Shown: positions 36-7,181 of the stretch, piece by piece
Numbering within the stretch: position 1 is the stretch's first letter
Layout: each line of letters starts with the position of its first letter
NCBI GenBank assembly: GCA_011772595.1
Contig: WVZH01000312.1
Coordinates: forward strand, 84,196-91,376
DNA from: Anaerolineales bacterium
Lineage (GTDB): Bacteria > Chloroflexota > Anaerolineae > Anaerolineales > E44-bin32
DNA: 7,181 nt
Direction of reading: 5' to 3'
Translations under genes and position numbers: made by a program
Notes under the pieces: model-generated
What the model was told of the DNA's origin: nothing
The model's database searches: none
The model's input: the letters and a program-made list of their open reading frames with translations, nothing else

Positions 36-430
36 CAGTTAAATTGCTCGTGGTTGAGGATCACGCTGTCGTACGTCTTGGCTTACAGATGCTCCTTGAT
101 AATCAACCCGATGTTGATATCGTTGGTGAAGCGCTCACAGGGGCGCAGGCGCTTCAATTAGCTGACGCGCTTCGACCGGATGTCGTATTGATGGACCTCG
201 GACTGCCTGACTCTTCTGGGATCGACATCTCGGCAGAGATCAAAAGGCGCCATCCAGATACGGCCATCGTCGCGCTCACGATTCATGAGGATCGAGAGTA
301 TATCGATAGGATGCTTTCGATTGGCGCGTTGGGCTACATATCCAAGCGAGCTGCCCCGGAGGAATTGATCGCCGCAATTCACAAGGCCGCTGAAGGTCAA
401 ACATACCTGGGCGCTGTGCTGCCTGGTTAG
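32..430 (+). CDS. Receiver-only response regulator (NarL/FixJ-like, no DNA-binding domain)
   Basis: This 132-residue protein is a complete phosphoacceptor receiver domain, the part of a two-component system that takes a phosphate from a sensor kinase. Visible landmarks are the acidic pair E9-D10, the phosphorylated aspartate D55 in VLMDLGLP, the switch threonine T83 and the conserved lysine K105 in GYISKRA. The segment at about 110-126 (EELIAAIHKAAEGQTYL) is the usual run-out of NarL-family receivers towards the linker. There the protein stops, about 75-85 residues short of a normal NarL regulator. None of the three frames downstream encodes a LuxR-type helix-turn-helix, so this is a loss and not a simple frameshift. 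The start is GTG, with an AAAGGA Shine-Dalgarno at 19-24, and overlaps the upstream stop. It may act through protein contacts, as CheY or Spo0F do, or may be a degraded regulator. Confidence 0.85.
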   Translation: MTVKLLVVEDHAVVRLGLQMLLDNQPDVDIVGEALTGAQALQLADALRPDVVLMDLGLPDSSGIDISAEIKRRHPDTAIVALTIHEDREYIDRMLSIGALGYISKRAAPEELIAAIHKAAEGQTYLGAVLPG

Positions 431-520
431 GCGTAAATCAGCCTCGAATCTCGGCAAACCAATAGAAGTTTATAGCAGGTGGGTGTGAGAGCGCGCGGAC
501 ACGGTTTCGTCCACAATTTT

Positions 521-552
521 AAGGTCACTCAAATTAAATAAGAAGGTCACTC
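521..552. repeat. Two direct copies of AAGGTCACTC, 22 bp apart
   Basis: AAGGTCACTC occurs at 521-530 and again, identically, at 543-552. The start-to-start distance is 22 bp, about two turns of the helix, so both copies would face the same side of the DNA. The pair lies in the gap between the response regulator and the cyclic-nucleotide-binding-fold gene (start 643). That position fits a binding site for a regulator, but no protein can be named. Confidence 0.5.
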
Positions 553-632
553 GTAAGGACTTCTTTGGAGCGAAACCATCATCAATGATTTGTGCAGTAT
601 GGGAAGTCCGGCATGATTCCATTCAACGCTTT

Positions 633-636
633 GGAG
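633..636 (+). promoter_or_regulatory. Shine-Dalgarno GGAG deciding the start at ATG 643
   Basis: GGAG lies six bases before ATG 643. The in-frame alternatives, GTG 592 and ATG 613, have no comparable site, so 643 is the preferred start of the cyclic-nucleotide-binding-fold protein. Confidence 0.6.
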
Positions 637-642
637 ATCGGC

Positions 643-1095
643 ATGGATCCAAACGAAGTATTAACTACCAATGCATTATTCGACGGCGTCCCTGACCAGG
701 TGCTTGCTACGATTGCTGATATCAGCAAGGAGGTCGAACACTTCAGAGGGGAGCTTATCTTTGAAGAGGGGGAAAAGGCAGAGCATTTGTACATTTTGGT
801 CGAGGGGAAGGTCTCAATTCGCGCTCACCTGACATCACGACCGGAGAGCATTACCGTAGCAATCTTGAACCAGAGCGATCAAAGCTTCGGGTGGTCCTGT
901 GTGGTTGCGCCGTTTTGTTACACGGCTTCGGCGCTATGTGAGACAGATTGCCGTCTCCTGGCGATCCCGGGGTAGAAGCTCCTTGAAATTCTCAAGCGGG
1001 AACCAGCGTCCGGGTTTGCGGTCATGAGGCGCATCTCCGAGGTGATCAGCAGCCGGCCACGAAACAGCCGCGCAGTCCTGCTAAAGACATTGTGA
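643..1095 (+). pseudogene. Stand-alone cyclic-nucleotide-binding-fold protein interrupted by an in-frame TAG
   Basis: From ATG 643 the frame encodes a Crp-like sensor beta-barrel with no DNA-binding domain. Residues 34-57 (FRGELIFEEGEKAEHLY then ILVEGKV) are the typical jelly-roll strands. A TAG at 973-975 (codon 111) stops translation after 110 residues. The same frame continues without another stop to TGA 1093-1095, reading KLLEILKREPASGFAVMRR and ending SRAVLLKTL, which is the normal C-terminal helix of these roughly 150-residue proteins. A single change from GAG would explain the stop. The canonical phosphate-binding cassette is altered: GW (83-84) stands where GE is usual, and YTA (93-95) where R-S/T-A is usual. 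It probably does not bind cAMP in the standard way. Likely a recent pseudogene; the alternatives are a short but functional protein, TAG read-through, or a sequencing error. Confidence 0.8.
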
Positions 1096-1952: not shown

Positions 1953-1975
1953 TCCAACGGACGTTGAGCGTTGGA
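1953..1975. promoter_or_regulatory. Inverted repeat TCCAACG-N9-CGTTGGA, candidate operator or leader hairpin
   Basis: The 7-bp arms TCCAACG (1953-1959) and CGTTGGA (1969-1975) are perfectly complementary. The 9-base centre carries another CGTTG (1962-1966) that can pair with CAACG (1955-1959) over a 2-base loop, so two mutually exclusive hairpins are possible. The repeat directly follows the candidate -10 box, a common place for a repressor site. No regulator can be named. Confidence 0.45.
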
Positions 1976-2061
1976 TGGCAGTAGTTGATAAAATTCGACA
2001 GGCGTGCGATAAAGGGGGCATAGAAACAGCCACGGTTTACAAGAACTACGCCGACATCTCC

Positions 2062-2066
2062 GGAGG
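2062..2066 (+). promoter_or_regulatory. Shine-Dalgarno GGAGG deciding the start at ATG 2074
   Basis: GGAGG lies seven bases before ATG 2074. The conserved family sequence (PGPVEV) begins ten residues after this ATG, so it is preferred over ATG 1975. Confidence 0.8.
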
Positions 2067-2073
2067 AAAAAAG

Positions 2074-3189
2074 ATGGCAGATAAACCCTTGAAGCTGATG
2101 ATTCCTGGACCTGTTGAGGTGGAGCAGGAGGTCCTGGCGGTCATGGCAAACCCCGTGATGCCTCATTACGGGGAGGCGTGGACAAAGCTCTTCAACGAGA
2201 CCATAGAATTGCTGAAATCGGTCTTCAATACACAAGGTGACGTTTTCCTCATGGTTGGCTCTGGAAGCGCAGGCATCGATGCCTGTATCGGGAGTTCGCT
2301 GCGACGCGGTGAGAAAATCCTCGTGGGTGTCAATGGTTTTTTTGGTGAACGCATGGCGATCATCGCAGAGGGTTATGGTCTGCATGTGGTGCGCCTGGAG
2401 AGGGAGTGGGGCGCGCCGATTCCCGCAGCGACGATTGAACAAGCCTTGCGTGAACATCCTGATGCCAAAGCGGTTGCCATGGTGCACTTGGAGACTTCCA
2501 CGGCGATCGCAAATCCTGTCGAGGTGATAGGTGCTCTAGTCAAGGAGGCCGGCGCCTTATTTATCATCGATTCAGTCTCCTCCTTAGGAGGATTGCCGTT
2601 GAAGGTGGACGCATGGGGCATCGATCTTTGCGCCTCGGCCTCTCAGAAATGTCTGGGTGCGCCTCCTGGTCTTACGCCGGTTTCTGTCTCCTCTGCTGCC
2701 TGGGAGGCCATTATGGCGAACGACACGCCACATGGTTGGTATTTAGATTTAAAGGTCTGGCGTCAATACGCCATTGATTGGGCAGACTGGCATCCATACC
2801 CGACGACCACAGCGACCAACAATATCCTCACGTTGCGTGCCAGCCTCAAACGCCTGCTTGAGGAAGGACTGGAAGCACGTTTGATTCGCTATCGGGACTT
2901 AGCGCTTCAGTTACGCCGGGGATTGCGTGAGATCGGCATGCCCCCTTACACGCCTGACGAGGATCTCGTTCCCGTGCTGACGCCTGTTTGTGCACCAGAG
3001 GGCGTGCCGGCAGGTGAGGTCGTGGAATACATGGAACAGGTTCAGCGTATCAAGATCGGACCCGGATTGGGCGAGGCGCTGCAAGACAAGATATTCCGCA
3101 TTGGACATATGTCTCCTGCCGTCACAAGCGAAGACATTGAGGAAGTGCTACAAGCGCTTGCAGCTTTCACCCCTTCGTGGCGAGGGTGA
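2074..3189 (+). CDS. Class V PLP aminotransferase, alanine/serine-glyoxylate type
   Basis: This 371-residue protein is a full-length fold-type I, class V aminotransferase, the family of alanine-glyoxylate, serine-pyruvate and ureidoglycine-glyoxylate aminotransferases. Visible in order: the N-terminal PGPVEV (11-16); the glycine-rich cofactor phosphate-binding turn GSGSAGIDA (62-70); HLETSTA (138-144); the aspartate that pairs with the PLP ring nitrogen, D166 in IIDSVSSLGG; the Schiff-base lysine K192 in SASQKCLGAPPG; and the C-terminal R342 in FRIGHMS, which binds the substrate carboxylate in relatives. All key residues are present and the length is normal, so it should be active in the cytoplasm. 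Glyoxylate as amino acceptor is likely from family resemblance. The donor (alanine, serine or ureidoglycine) is not decided by what I can see. The nearby fdrA/DUF1116 genes, known from allantoin breakdown, make a ureidoglycine role worth considering. It is transcribed alone and converges on the capA-like gene. Confidence 0.92.
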   Translation: MADKPLKLMIPGPVEVEQEVLAVMANPVMPHYGEAWTKLFNETIELLKSVFNTQGDVFLMVGSGSAGIDACIGSSLRRGEKILVGVNGFFGERMAIIAEGYGLHVVRLEREWGAPIPAATIEQALREHPDAKAVAMVHLETSTAIANPVEVIGALVKEAGALFIIDSVSSLGGLPLKVDAWGIDLCASASQKCLGAPPGLTPVSVSSAAWEAIMANDTPHGWYLDLKVWRQYAIDWADWHPYPTTTATNNILTLRASLKRLLEEGLEARLIRYRDLALQLRRGLREIGMPPYTPDEDLVPVLTPVCAPEGVPAGEVVEYMEQVQRIKIGPGLGEALQDKIFRIGHMSPAVTSEDIEEVLQALAAFTPSWRG

Positions 3190-3326: not shown

Positions 3327-4436
3327 TCACCTCACCTCGATCACCAGACGATTTCCCTCGCGCCGGACCTCCGTTCCCATTGCGGCGGAGAGTTCTTGCA
3401 TTCGTGCATGGATTTGATCAAAGTCTGCTCCATGAGCTTGGTTGGTCTGGGCGAGACGGATCATTACCGGAACCAATTCAATCTTCTTCACACCTCTTTT
3501 GGTCACAGTTAGGAGAAAGAGGAGTTGTTGATCGTTCCTGAGAACCTCATCCACAGCATAGTCGTCTATTAGATCTCCGGTATCGTAGAGAATAACCTTT
3601 CCATTGTAGATTTCAATGCCTTGGAAGACGTGAGCGCTGTGTCCGTGGAAGATGTCGGCGCCTGCATCCATCACCTCCCTGGCGAACTCTTTGAACTCGG
3701 TGGTTGGGATTTGCCTCATATTAGGACCCCAGTGGATGGAGAACACGACGAGATCTGCTCCGGCCTCTCGAACCTTCTCGATGCTTTGCCGAACCCGGTT
3801 GAAATAAGGCTCGTCGACGGTTATCGGGATGACGTTGGTGCCGGCTTTGTTCTCCGTGGCAGCATACTCACGAAAGTGGTCGGTAAAAGCTATTACACCA
3901 ATGGTGATCCCTTTCGCTTCCAGCAGTGTGAACTGAGAAGCAGCTTCTAGATTCCTTCCCGCCCCGGCATAAGCGATCCCGTGCTCGTCCAGGTGGTGAA
4001 TGGTTTCTAATAGGGCTGGAGATTGATAATCCATGGCGTGGTTGTTGGACAGTGTAACGTAGTCAACACCAGCCGCAGTTAATGCTTCTATCACCTTGGG
4101 ATCCGCTCTGAAATAAAAAACTCTGGGTGGGCGGAAGGGTTCACCACTCTCGGCGATGACGCACTCGAGGTTGATCAAGAAAAGATCGGCCGATTGAACG
4201 AGAGCGAGAAGATCGCCCCAAGGGTAGAGTGGGCCAAACTTCAGGATTATTTCATTAACCCAGCGCCCGAGCATGACGTCGCCGGCTAAAGCGAGGGTGA
4301 TCTCCTCTGTATCTCCTTCAAGCGTGGGTTGCGGCGTGACGGGGGAGGGGACCGCCAATTCTTCCAATGGTGATACTGGGCTGGTTGCACAACCACTGGT
4401 CAAGAGTACTAGGAATAGAAAGGCGAGGCGTTTCAT
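3327..4436 (-). CDS. CapA/PgsA-family putative lipoprotein (metallophosphatase-like fold)
   Basis: From ATG 4436 the protein has 369 residues. It starts with a lipoprotein signal: MKR, a hydrophobic stretch (4-12), and TSGC with the acylated cysteine at C16. A proline-rich spacer (about 20-40) follows. The CapA domain then shows ALAGDVMLGR (49-58), INLEC (88-92), TLSNNHAMDY (128-137), SIHWGPN (233-239), HGHSAHVFQG (264-273) and YDTGD (284-288). These Asp, Asn and His residues are the predicted metal site of this calcineurin-like family, whose members take part in poly-gamma-glutamate capsule export or cell-envelope chemistry. No capB, capC or pgsE genes are visible, so a capsule role is unproven. 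The frame is open upstream to 4580, but the lipoprotein signal and a GGGGTGA ribosome site (4441-4447) fix the start at 4436. It is apparently a single-gene unit. Confidence 0.88.
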   Translation of the reverse strand: MKRLAFLFLVLLTSGCATSPVSPLEELAVPSPVTPQPTLEGDTEEITLALAGDVMLGRWVNEIILKFGPLYPWGDLLALVQSADLFLINLECVIAESGEPFRPPRVFYFRADPKVIEALTAAGVDYVTLSNNHAMDYQSPALLETIHHLDEHGIAYAGAGRNLEAASQFTLLEAKGITIGVIAFTDHFREYAATENKAGTNVIPITVDEPYFNRVRQSIEKVREAGADLVVFSIHWGPNMRQIPTTEFKEFAREVMDAGADIFHGHSAHVFQGIEIYNGKVILYDTGDLIDDYAVDEVLRNDQQLLFLLTVTKRGVKKIELVPVMIRLAQTNQAHGADFDQIHARMQELSAAMGTEVRREGNRLVIEVR

Positions 4437-4659: not shown

Positions 4660-4833
4660 CTACAGTAGCTCATCCAACAGCTCAATCATCTCTTTATCAC
4701 CACCGGCTGGTGGGATCCAGTCCACTTGAACCACTTCAACTTCCTGTTTCTCCAGGTTATCTGCAAATCCCTTCAGACCGATGTTAATGACGACAAGGGG
4801 TTCGTGGAGAAGCTCTTCAATCTTGCTATCCAT
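4660..4833 (-). CDS. Small FdrA-associated protein, 57 residues
   Basis: This short frame runs from ATG 4833 to TAG 4660-4662. The Shine-Dalgarno AGGAGGG directly precedes it and overlaps the fdrA stop codon, with only nine bases between the genes, so it is very probably co-translated with fdrA. The sequence starts MDSKIEELLHEPLVVINIG and continues with FADNLEKQ and VEVVQVDWIPPAGGD (33-46). It ends in an acidic helix, KEMIELLDELL (47-57). I recognise the pattern N-I-G-L-x-x-F-A ... V-x-W-x-PPAGGDKEM-x-x-LLD as that of short proteins annotated as 'fdrA domain protein' beside fdrA in other bacteria, but their function is unknown to me. It has no signal peptide or membrane segment. A structural or accessory subunit of the FdrA/DUF1116 complex is the likeliest role. 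Confidence 0.85.
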   Translation of the reverse strand: MDSKIEELLHEPLVVINIGLKGFADNLEKQEVEVVQVDWIPPAGGDKEMIELLDELL

Positions 4834-4842
4834 CCCTCCCTC
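4834..4842 (-). promoter_or_regulatory. Ribosome-binding site of the 57-residue gene, abutting the fdrA stop
   Basis: The minus strand reads GAGGGAGGG here, just before ATG 4833, giving strong complementarity to 16S rRNA. It directly follows, and with AGGAGG partly overlaps, the fdrA TAG at 4843-4845. This supports the small gene as real and as coupled to fdrA. Confidence 0.7.
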
Positions 4843-6387
4843 CTAGCCAGGCTTTACTAATTCGCTGCAGAAGAGCGCCGCTCTCGCGTTGCTTTGGAAT
4901 ACGATCACGCCTGCTTCTCGAAGCAGTCTTGCTTGCAGGTTTAGATCCTGGGGATCCTCTTCGGTGCCGCAGATTGAGGCGACGACTGTTAATTCCCCTC
5001 CACGCTTGCGTGCGTCCCGCATCGCACGTACGATGGCATCCTGTAGCTCACCTGCAGGATCCATCGCTGCGTTGTATCCCAGGATGAAATCAAGCAATAG
5101 GATCGCGACCGTCGGATCACGGCTTTCGGTGAGGATGCGCTGTTTACGAATCGTTCCATCGATCATCGGATGGGGTCTTCCCAGCGTGTAGGTTTCGTCG
5201 CCCAGGTCGATGAAGGAGTGTGCGTGGCTCTGATCTGGATCTGTGAGCCTGTATTGGTGATCCAAGGGTGCGTTTGAGTAAACGTCTACCCCCGCATCCT
5301 TTAGGATTTGCTGGGACTGGTAGCAGAAAGTCCCTCCGGCGAATAACCCACGGAGATATCGCTGCTCTGGGTGCCAATTCTCACGCGTGCGAGCAGCTAA
5401 ATCACGCTCTTGTTGTGTGAGATGAAGTTGTGCAGGCGCATGTTTGGCATTCAGGCGGTGAATCGCTGCGTGGACCGCTTCGTCGATGGAAGGCACCAAA
5501 ACGAGCGAGTCCCCTCCTACGAGCGACTCCATGCCTGCACCTAGGAAGCATCCAACCACGGGCTTCTTGCAGGTTTTCAGCCGTGTGAGCAGTTGTCCAA
5601 AGGTCCTTTCCCCCGGAGGCTTTGTAACGACCGAGATAATGCTTGTTTGCTCGTCGTCTTCAAGCGCTTCCAACGCAGCAAACGTTGTGATTCCACCGAT
5701 TTCGTCGGAAAGATCACGGCTTCCTGTGCCAATTGCATGGGAAATTCCGTATCCTTCGTTATGCACCTGGCTGGTAAACTCTTGCAACCCTGTGCCAGAC
5801 GGTCCGATCGCACCGATCGGTCCTCTTCTCACAACATTTGAGAACCCAAGGCCTACACCGCCGAGCAGACTGGTACCGCAATCAGGACCCATAACGAGCG
5901 AATTCTTCTTTACCGCTGACTGTTTTAATCTGAGCTCTTCTTCAACATCCACATTGCTGCTGAAGATGAAGACATTCAGGCCAGCATCCAAAGCCTTTAT
6001 GGCTTCTCGGTATACGAATTCGCCGGGGATAGAAAGGACTGCCAGGTTGGCGAGCGGCTTGTCGGCCAAGCCCTCTTCAAAGGTGCGAAACTGTGATATT
6101 GGTATGCTTCCCTCAAGCGCCAACAGCGCTTCATCCAGGCTCTCTAAGACGACTTCGACGATTTGAGGACTTTCCGCGATTACGGCGACGACTAGGTCGT
6201 TAGGTTTGGCGATGTCGATTTCATCTCCGTGGATGCCGATATCGGCAAGGAGCCGCTTGTTGTTCTCCGTTGCCATCAGAGCAGCTGTTTGTTGCACGCC
6301 TGGGTGTTGGGACAAGCGCTTATTGACTCCCATCAGAAAGACAGAGTCGTAGTATTGGTTCTTGCGGACGAGAAACCCGGATGCCAT
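4843..6387 (-). CDS. fdrA: FdrA-family protein, putative oxamate carbamoyltransferase subunit
   Basis: This 514-residue protein is full length or slightly shorter than E. coli FdrA (about 555). FdrA proteins are built like the alpha chain of succinyl-CoA synthetase: a CoA/nucleotide-binding fold followed by a flavodoxin-like ligase domain. The N terminus (FLVRKNQYYDSVFLMGVNKR) matches FdrA, supporting ATG 6387, which has GGAAAG (6393-6398) before it. Visible motifs are MGPDCGTS (166-173), AIGPSGTGLQEF (193-204), GTGSRDLSDEIGG (220-232) where the synthetase ligase domain begins, VTKPPGE (254-260), LFAGGTFCYQ (348-357), GRPHPMIDGTIR (403-414) and LLDFILGYNAAMDPAG (431-446). In E. coli, FdrA with YlbE and YlbF belongs to allantoin breakdown and has been linked to oxamate carbamoyltransferase (oxalurate plus phosphate to oxamate plus carbamoyl phosphate). 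Here it sits between a YlbE-type gene and the 57-residue gene in one apparent operon. Cytoplasmic. Confidence 0.9.
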   Translation of the reverse strand: MASGFLVRKNQYYDSVFLMGVNKRLSQHPGVQQTAALMATENNKRLLADIGIHGDEIDIAKPNDLVVAVIAESPQIVEVVLESLDEALLALEGSIPISQFRTFEEGLADKPLANLAVLSIPGEFVYREAIKALDAGLNVFIFSSNVDVEEELRLKQSAVKKNSLVMGPDCGTSLLGGVGLGFSNVVRRGPIGAIGPSGTGLQEFTSQVHNEGYGISHAIGTGSRDLSDEIGGITTFAALEALEDDEQTSIISVVTKPPGERTFGQLLTRLKTCKKPVVGCFLGAGMESLVGGDSLVLVPSIDEAVHAAIHRLNAKHAPAQLHLTQQERDLAARTRENWHPEQRYLRGLFAGGTFCYQSQQILKDAGVDVYSNAPLDHQYRLTDPDQSHAHSFIDLGDETYTLGRPHPMIDGTIRKQRILTESRDPTVAILLLDFILGYNAAMDPAGELQDAIVRAMRDARKRGGELTVVASICGTEEDPQDLNLQARLLREAGVIVFQSNARAALFCSELVKPG

Positions 6388-6420: not shown

Positions 6421-7181
6421 CTACATGTTATATCTCTGACCGAACGCAATCAAGGCTTGTTTAAAGCAGTCCATGGGTGCACGCACCAAGCCTGCGCCAA
6501 TGATCGGGTACCCTGGATCCTTGTGCGCAATGGCCGTATCGATAATAGGTGTGATGTTGGTTTGTACCACTTTGCGGATGTCAATCCCGACGGAAGTGCC
6601 GGCGAAACCAAGAATTGGCATACGATAGGTGGGATGTGTCGCGGTTGTGATCTTCCTCATCTCTCGCGTAAACGCCAACGCCTCCTCATGTGTACCACCT
6701 ACGAGTGTAAGAATCCCTGGAGCACCACCCAAGGTGAAAGCGCCCCAGCCGACGGTTTCGGTTATGGCTGAATCGCCCATGTCTAGGCCGGCGTCCTTAG
6801 CGAAATATCCAGGCAAGTACAGACCATCGACCACGGGCGCTTGAGCTGTAAACCACTCATCACCTAATCCACTGACGCGTATCCCGAACTCAGTCCCATT
6901 GCGGCACATGGCTGTAACGATGGTGCAGTGTTCAATTCCAGATGCAGGATCTGCTGTGGCTTTCCCGCACGCCATCGCCAATCCCAGAAAAAGCAAATGG
7001 TGTCCGGAGAGATACTGGAGTGTTGGAAGAGCTCGATCTTTAGGAATATCGGCTTCCGTCATGGCGACGGCCATGCTATTCGCAAAGAGGCTTGAGGAGG
7101 CGGTGTTGCGATTGTGCAGCTCATCACCCATTTGCAGCGCCTGGGTGATGATGGGGTTGAGATCGAGCCCGCCTGTCTTTT
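6421..7181 (-). CDS. ylbE: DUF1116/YlbE-family protein, C-terminal part (5' end beyond window)
   Basis: The frame is open to the right edge, so the true start lies outside; 252 residues are visible out of the roughly 420-470 usual for the family. The ATG at 7131 is internal: the 16 preceding codons read TGGLDLNPIITQALQ, followed by MGDELHNRN, a family hallmark. Other visible blocks are MCRNGTEFGIRVSG (91-104 of the visible part), VDGLYLPGY, ITETVGWGAF, and the C-terminal HKDPG (219-223) followed by IGAGLVRAPMDCF. In E. coli, YlbE is encoded next to FdrA in the allantoin region and is thought to be its partner in oxamate carbamoyltransferase. The stop is 33 bases before the fdrA ATG on the same strand, so the genes very probably form one operon with this one first among those visible. 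Further partners, such as a YlbF-like protein or carbamate kinase, would be expected beyond the right edge. Confidence 0.88.
   Translation of the reverse strand, partial: KTGGLDLNPIITQALQMGDELHNRNTASSSLFANSMAVAMTEADIPKDRALPTLQYLSGHHLLFLGLAMACGKATADPASGIEHCTIVTAMCRNGTEFGIRVSGLGDEWFTAQAPVVDGLYLPGYFAKDAGLDMGDSAITETVGWGAFTLGGAPGILTLVGGTHEEALAFTREMRKITTATHPTYRMPILGFAGTSVGIDIRKVVQTNITPIIDTAIAHKDPGYPIIGAGLVRAPMDCFKQALIAFGQRYNM

Follow-up and report, generated by a model that had tools for sequence, protein, structure and literature searches.

The 7,181 nucleotides of Anaerolineales DNA studied here, referred to as the window, hold a short reading frame directly behind fdrA. This raises the question of whether the frame is a gene at all and, if so, whether its product is a third, uncharacterised subunit of the FdrA/DUF1116 enzyme, as the original prediction proposed, or a piece of that enzyme known elsewhere in another form.

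A 57-codon gene behind a shortened fdrA

We identified the predicted 57-codon frame exactly where it had been placed, at positions 4660..4833 of the minus strand (stop included) with an ATG start, and its product contains the three motifs previously read from it (NIGL, WIPPAGGDKEM and LLDELL). Upstream on the same strand are fdrA (allF) at 4843..6387, encoding a core of 514 residues without the C-terminal domain, and allG (DUF1116, PF06545) at 6421..7179, of which the C-terminal 252 residues are in view and the 5' part lies outside the window. The minus-strand junction of fdrA and the small frame (4834..4845) reads CCTGGC TAG GAGGGAGGG ATG, with 9 nt between stop and ATG; the strong ribosome site said to abut the fdrA stop is a Shine-Dalgarno sequence, AGGAGG, that lies 5 nt ahead of the ATG and is overlapped by the TAG of fdrA. 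Core and tail are thus not joined in one chain as they are in E. coli AllF, being separated by a TAG and 9 nt, with a separate ATG and Shine-Dalgarno sequence for the small gene.

Homologues of the small protein were found well outside the source genome. In a single-sequence protein search, 212 of 213 candidates matched at E<=10, and 109 of the 120 homologues among the matches listed were exactly 57 residues long. A broad profile built from 36 diverse standalone forms, with candidates limited to proteins of about the length of the small frame, matched at least 7309 proteins at E<=1e-5 (7994 scored). Across 15 standalone genes pN was below pS in all 105 pairs, with dN/dS of 0.054-0.145 in the five pairs that were unsaturated (dS<1), and the pooled pN/pS of the small gene was 0.28 vs 0.287 for six FdrA genes. 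The frame is a real, conserved gene, far above chance, as its conserved look had led the original prediction to expect. The remark that such a gene is easily missed holds only in part, since public collections do predict homologues, some of them named 'fdrA domain protein' or 'FdrA protein'.

Two readings would deny the frame the status of a separate gene. In the window, fdrA and the small frame share one phase with a single TAG between them, as would be expected if this TAG were read through to give a full-length AllF, the small frame being only its in-frame tail. We surveyed 31 loci with a separate domain gene after fdrA (including the window, and leaving out loci without a determined fdrA start), and found the domain gene in frame in only 8, offset by 2 in 17 and by 1 in 6, behind mixed fdrA stops (TGA 12, TAG 11, TAA 8). 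The domain-gene start overlapped the end of fdrA in 9 of the 31 loci, and a Shine-Dalgarno-like match of at least 4 bases preceded it in 26, indicating that the small frame is translated from its own start. Readthrough as a general mechanism is ruled out by this survey, in which the in-frame TAG of the window is no general signal, and we regard it as very improbable for the window. The position of the frame behind fdrA and its match to the E. coli FdrA tail might equally suggest a spurious frame or a decaying remnant of a longer fdrA; however, selection as strong as on FdrA (dN/dS 0.05-0.15, pooled pN/pS 0.28 against 0.29), and thousands of homologues close to it in length, leave this reading a negligible probability.

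The small protein corresponds to the C-terminal domain of AllF

Residues 507-554 of E. coli K-12 AllF (locus L181) aligned with the small protein at 46% identity over 48 residues (E 4.9e-11), and the FdrA of the window aligned with residues 5-495 of the same protein. The NCBIfam FdrA model NF004760 (555 positions) gave the same division: the small protein matched positions 504-554 (E 4.5e-12, 45.2 bits), below the full-length cut-off because a fragment cannot reach it, and the window fdrA matched positions 5-495 at 447.8 bits, above the curated cut-off of 433. All 28 members of an alignment of similar sequences (A1) also matched NF004760. The window FdrA additionally carries the CoA_binding (PF02629, 3.4e-9) and Ligase_CoA (PF00549, 3.4e-29) domains, and the solved structure of E. 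coli FdrA, PDB 3dmy, includes the small domain at chain positions 426-473 (E 8.7e-6). Since the small protein covers the AllF tail and the window FdrA covers 5-495, it takes both genes, the shortened fdrA and the small one, to make up one AllF of the E. coli type. A Pfam-A search with the small protein returned no family at E<=1; weak matches to acylphosphatase (E 0.05-0.5) were taken as chance, and this identity was rejected.

At the level of sequence, the homology to the AllF tail, the end of FdrA where that tail starts, the selection, the ribosome site and the linkage to AllF and AllG described below are established. We consider it probable that the 57-residue product is the C-terminal domain of AllF made as a free polypeptide, which completes an AllFGH-type enzyme together with AllF and AllG. 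In E. coli AllF (b0518) the homologous region, at about 500-555, likewise follows the AllF core, but lies within a single chain of 555 residues, whereas in the window it is a separate protein of 57 residues. The statement that E. coli has no separate gene of this kind was therefore wrong or incomplete, as the domain forms the last ~50 residues of E. coli FdrA/AllF. Proteins named 'fdrA domain protein' in Clostridiales, Lutibacter sp. B2, Alkaliphilus serpentinus and others (56-59 residues) belong to the same standalone family; in the clostridial loci studied (e.g. L019, L029, L067) their gene lies between fdrA and allG, whereas in the window the small gene follows fdrA and allG is upstream of fdrA.

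Distribution and linkage to FdrA and AllG

We investigated where the domain (s) occurs relative to FdrA (F) and AllG (G) in two sets of loci. A contig scan with VDWxPPAGG confirmed 451 places, and 80 of these were analysed. Standalone genes with both partners in view made up 53 of these (17 G-F-s, 23 s-G-F and 13 F-s-G), and standalone genes with at most one partner in view a further 7 (3 F-s, 2 s-G, 1 s-F and 1 s alone); the domain was fused to the N-terminus of AllG in 15, to the C-terminus of FdrA in 3, and placed between the two in a single FdrA-domain-AllG chain in 2. Because this set had been chosen by the domain's own motif, we added a survey that started from AllG in the phyla of L001 (Chloroflexota), L078 (Lysinibacillus) and L011 (Hyphomicrobiales), the last two of which we take to be Bacillota and Pseudomonadota. 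PF06545 was found in 57 of 301, 44 of 299 and 11 of 299 genomes (one of the 11 below cut-off), and the loci covered, respectively, 60 of 68 listed places, 40 stretches with 42 of about 50 listed genes, and 13 of 14 places. Four of them (L159, L153, L167 and L180) are also in the motif-first set, and L188 is the locus of the L011 genome itself.

A domain HMM identified the domain in 105 of the 113 AllG-first loci (94/100 and 11/13), and in 104 of the 106 that also hold FdrA (93/95 and 11/11). In the first 100 loci it was fused to AllG in 65, fused to FdrA in 14 and standalone in 15; the corresponding numbers for the further 13 were 7, 2 and 2. The two loci with FdrA and AllG in which the domain HMM gave no significant match, L127 and L131 of Chloroflexota, had only traces (E 0.8-1.6) at the start of AllG. 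Their FdrA matches the HMM poorly in its middle part (266-392 unmatched), and their genomes (G263 and G184) have a second AllG elsewhere. Neither domain nor FdrA was found within the loci L134, L135, L137, L175, L193 and L194, the last two being weak AllG matches. The AllG of L134 adjoins genes for glutamine synthetase and an amino-acid permease, that of L135 Bmp/ABC transporter genes and that of L175 a cyclase-family gene; in L134, L135, L137 and L175 AllG possibly has other functions. L138 holds the domain and AllG, with FdrA absent from the locus.

Linkage was equally close when viewed from the domain. Among loci L001-L180, 174 of 175 domain matches lay no more than 4 kb from an FdrA or AllG gene of the same strand; the remaining one was at a contig end. 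A genome-wide search of the 301 Chloroflexota genomes with the domain alignment found the domain in at least 51: at least 50 of the 57 with AllG, against at least 1 of the 244 without. The only match in an AllG-less genome among the matches listed (G244) was weak, covering 16 positions at E 4.3e-4, and two of the seven AllG genomes missed by this search (G035 and G044) scored 26 bits for the domain when single loci were searched (L116 and L113). We additionally noted that G001, the genome of L001, has two AllG genes, one in a standalone-domain system and one fused to the domain (L082), and that G003, the genome of L030, has two as well, the second with a 474-residue frame. No FdrA was found in a genome search of Calidifontibacillus (L077) despite its domain-AllG fusion and carbamate kinase, and the 411-residue frame at the expected place of FdrA had no FdrA similarity. 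This locus (2860-8375) encodes PucR, a membrane-protein-like frame, the domain-AllG fusion and carbamate kinase.

Bacteria have repeatedly attached the domain to one partner, the other, both or neither. In the 180 loci L001-L180 it was fused to FdrA in 17, to AllG in 80 and to both in 2, always after FdrA (17/17) and always before AllG (80/80) in the two-part fusions, so that the proposed check, for homologues adjoining fdrA or joined to either FdrA or DUF1116, came out positive in every form. The standalone genes have similarly restricted orders. With both partners in view, 68 were counted, or 66 once loci common to both sets were removed, and these fell into G-F-s (19), F-s-G (24) and s-G-F (23), the three cyclic permutations of FdrA, domain and AllG; the other three orders occurred in none of the 66. 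The one possible exception is L041, with the order s-F and AllG outside the view, in a locus that has 27 N. A single short frame beside FdrA in this locus (4037-4312) has two domain matches, the first partial, perhaps a tandem partial duplication. On a FastTree phylogeny of AllG (190 rows) the architecture label requires at least 27 changes, with related loci not being independent, and the AllG of the window belongs to a starred group of 18 rows, each of them standalone.

Triple fusions and structural models

A natural triple fusion used as query matched at least 542 proteins at E<=1e-10 (7997 scored). In all 120 FdrA-domain-AllG proteins among the matches listed the HMM placed the domain between its two partners (P0174 is partial). 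Such FdrA-DUF1116 fusions of about 1000-1040 residues (Gracilinema, Sphaerochaeta, Terrabacter and others) resemble the window in their domain, set between AllF and AllG, and differ in having all three parts in one chain and in the loop: the strict pattern W-x-P-x-[AG]-G-G is kept in 52 of the 120 and missing in 68. In window numbering, G19 and P41 are kept in 100% and W39 in 97% of the same proteins. Many of P0202-P0240, several actinobacterial by name, mostly keep W-x-P and have an altered PPAGGD loop, which reads PPMPGT in P0232 and P0239; these variants could show, as a natural test, which residues of the loop are important. The newer Pfam model PF27530 is annotated on triple fusions, and not on standalone domain proteins, among the matches listed.

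We modelled the triple fusion of L052 with AlphaFold2, using an alignment of 73 natural triple-fusion sequences (A4), and obtained a pLDDT of 90.1 and a pTM of 0.85. The domain in this model (about 550-605) had block means of 90-95 and a helix-strand-helix-strand-helix fold. Modelled alone from A1 (28 sequences, 67-82% identical), the 57 residues gave three helices and no strand, with a pLDDT of 68.9 and a pTM of 0.33. The two models, whose alignment depths differ, would fit a piece that folds on its partners. Foldseek and VIA-align matched the triple-fusion model to AllG (3clq; model 604..1019, entry residues 57..474), to AllF (3dmy; model 97..591, entry residues 101..551, rmsd 19.9 over 428 residues) and to CoA-ligase relatives, and Foldseek against viral models found no match at E<=0.001. 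The PDB searches found AllF and AllG each alone, and no complex. Succinyl-CoA synthetase alpha chain is a fold relative that has the CoA-binding and CoA-ligase domains in common with the AllF core, but its structural matches extend over no more than the first ~320 residues of the triple-fusion model.

Covariation (MI-APC) over 264 paired sets, with an effective number of 157, gave domain-FdrA pairs at 0.52, 0.84, 0.94 and 1.21 of expectation in the top 200, 500, 1000 and 2000, and domain-AllG pairs at 0.22-0.28 of expectation from top 200 to 2000, without a signal of AllG contact. It is equivocal on contact between the domain and AllF, and decides nothing on the place of the domain, since the signal is dominated by a single domain column and uncorrected for kinship.

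Operon context and the enzyme

Oxamic transcarbamylase was assigned to E. coli AllF, AllG and AllH (allFGH) in 2024 (PMC11326118), and the known enzyme already has AllH as its third subunit; OXTCase transfers a carbamoyl group, in which it differs from succinyl-CoA synthetase. The Discussion of that report names no role for the AllF tail.

In the window allG adjoins allF (PF06545 E 2.5e-49, 6421-7179; PDB 3clq). The window ends within allG, and we searched upstream of this gene in 19 relatives of the G-F-s order. AllH matched in 13, directly upstream of allG in 12 and apart from it in L133; there was no match in L008, L021, L047 and L071 despite room upstream of allG, and in L005 and L007, also without an AllH match, the sequence ends close upstream of it. 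Nucleoside-type ABC transporter genes were present in the same 19 relatives, Bmp in 11 and permease (BPD_transp_2) in 9, giving a common operon of allH-allG-allF-small, often behind such transporter genes. For nitrifiers, PMC12625717 describes allFGH next to triuret genes, in neighbourhoods that also contain bmpA-nupABC. The reaction of the enzyme is probably oxalurate + phosphate <-> oxamate + carbamoyl phosphate. Elsewhere in the window (1975-3189, plus strand) we noted a class V aminotransferase near the pyridoxamine-pyruvate, PhnW and BhcA models, below the cut-offs of all three.

Proposed role and alternative readings

We propose that translational coupling to allF would keep the small protein and AllF in step, and that the 57-residue protein would bind back to AllF and AllG. 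It would sit at or near the AllF-AllG junction, toward AllG, a placement suggested by the natural fusions, in which the chain passes from the AllF C-terminus into the AllG N-terminus. The AllFGH-type enzyme, which transfers carbamoyl groups, may depend on it for assembly or completion. Its likely role would be that of an interface piece required for AllF and AllG to assemble; it might act as a structural clip alone or also contribute active-site residues through its W-x-P-P-A-G-G-D loop. The proposal of a third, uncharacterised subunit stands insofar as the gene is real and closely linked to FdrA/DUF1116, and its product very probably belongs to the enzyme; it fails in that the protein is a split-off AllF domain and the enzyme was already known. 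Given the AllF tail in E. coli and the known AllFGH and AllH, the small protein is a further polypeptide of a known system and not an unrelated third subunit.

Other readings of the role differ in plausibility. The small protein might instead be an independent subunit with a role of its own, for example as a regulator, and the copy in E. coli AllF a secondary fusion; the separate gene in many lineages, its three gene orders and the at least 27 architecture changes, among which 'part of AllF' is only one state, argue for this, but the domain accompanies FdrA and AllG in 104 of 106 loci, unlike an optional regulator, and we hold this to be quite improbable. A more specific and speculative idea, to which we give a somewhat better though still low chance, is that the 50-residue module is a moving or catalytic part, its W-x-P-P-A-G-G-D loop completing the active site at the AllF-AllG junction, e.g. 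by closing over carbamoyl phosphate; evolution would then have kept it free to attach to either, both or neither because it must reach both subunits. Doubts of another kind concern the reaction. The AllFGH of the Chloroflexota clade of the window could perform a related but different carbamoyl or acyl transfer, and not oxamic transcarbamylation, as its AllG proteins score 248-256 bits against PF06545 (G001:C82, G002, G003:C190 and G241; best ~340) and G001 and G003 have a second, higher-scoring AllG; however, AllH and nucleoside-type transporter genes occur in many relatives' operons, as expected for purine-derived substrates. We regard this departure as unlikely, if marginally the least so of the alternatives. 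Our preferred reading remains the AllF C-terminal domain supplied in trans.

Significance

The names 'fdrA domain protein' and 'FdrA protein' on some homologues, and the enzyme AllFGH, were already known. In the mostly open-access full-text literature searched, including PMC8550087, PMC12625717 and PMC3364942, we found no account of a separate FdrA tail protein or of its movement between AllF and AllG; the split-subunit form of AllFGH appears to be new. Assignment to the AllF tail tells what thousands of small proteins are, and leads to the prediction that AllF expression constructs from organisms of the window type would be incomplete without the small gene. The movement of the domain between chains and the cyclic gene order point to a specific 50-residue element that would be needed for the enzyme, and that likely lies between AllF and AllG.
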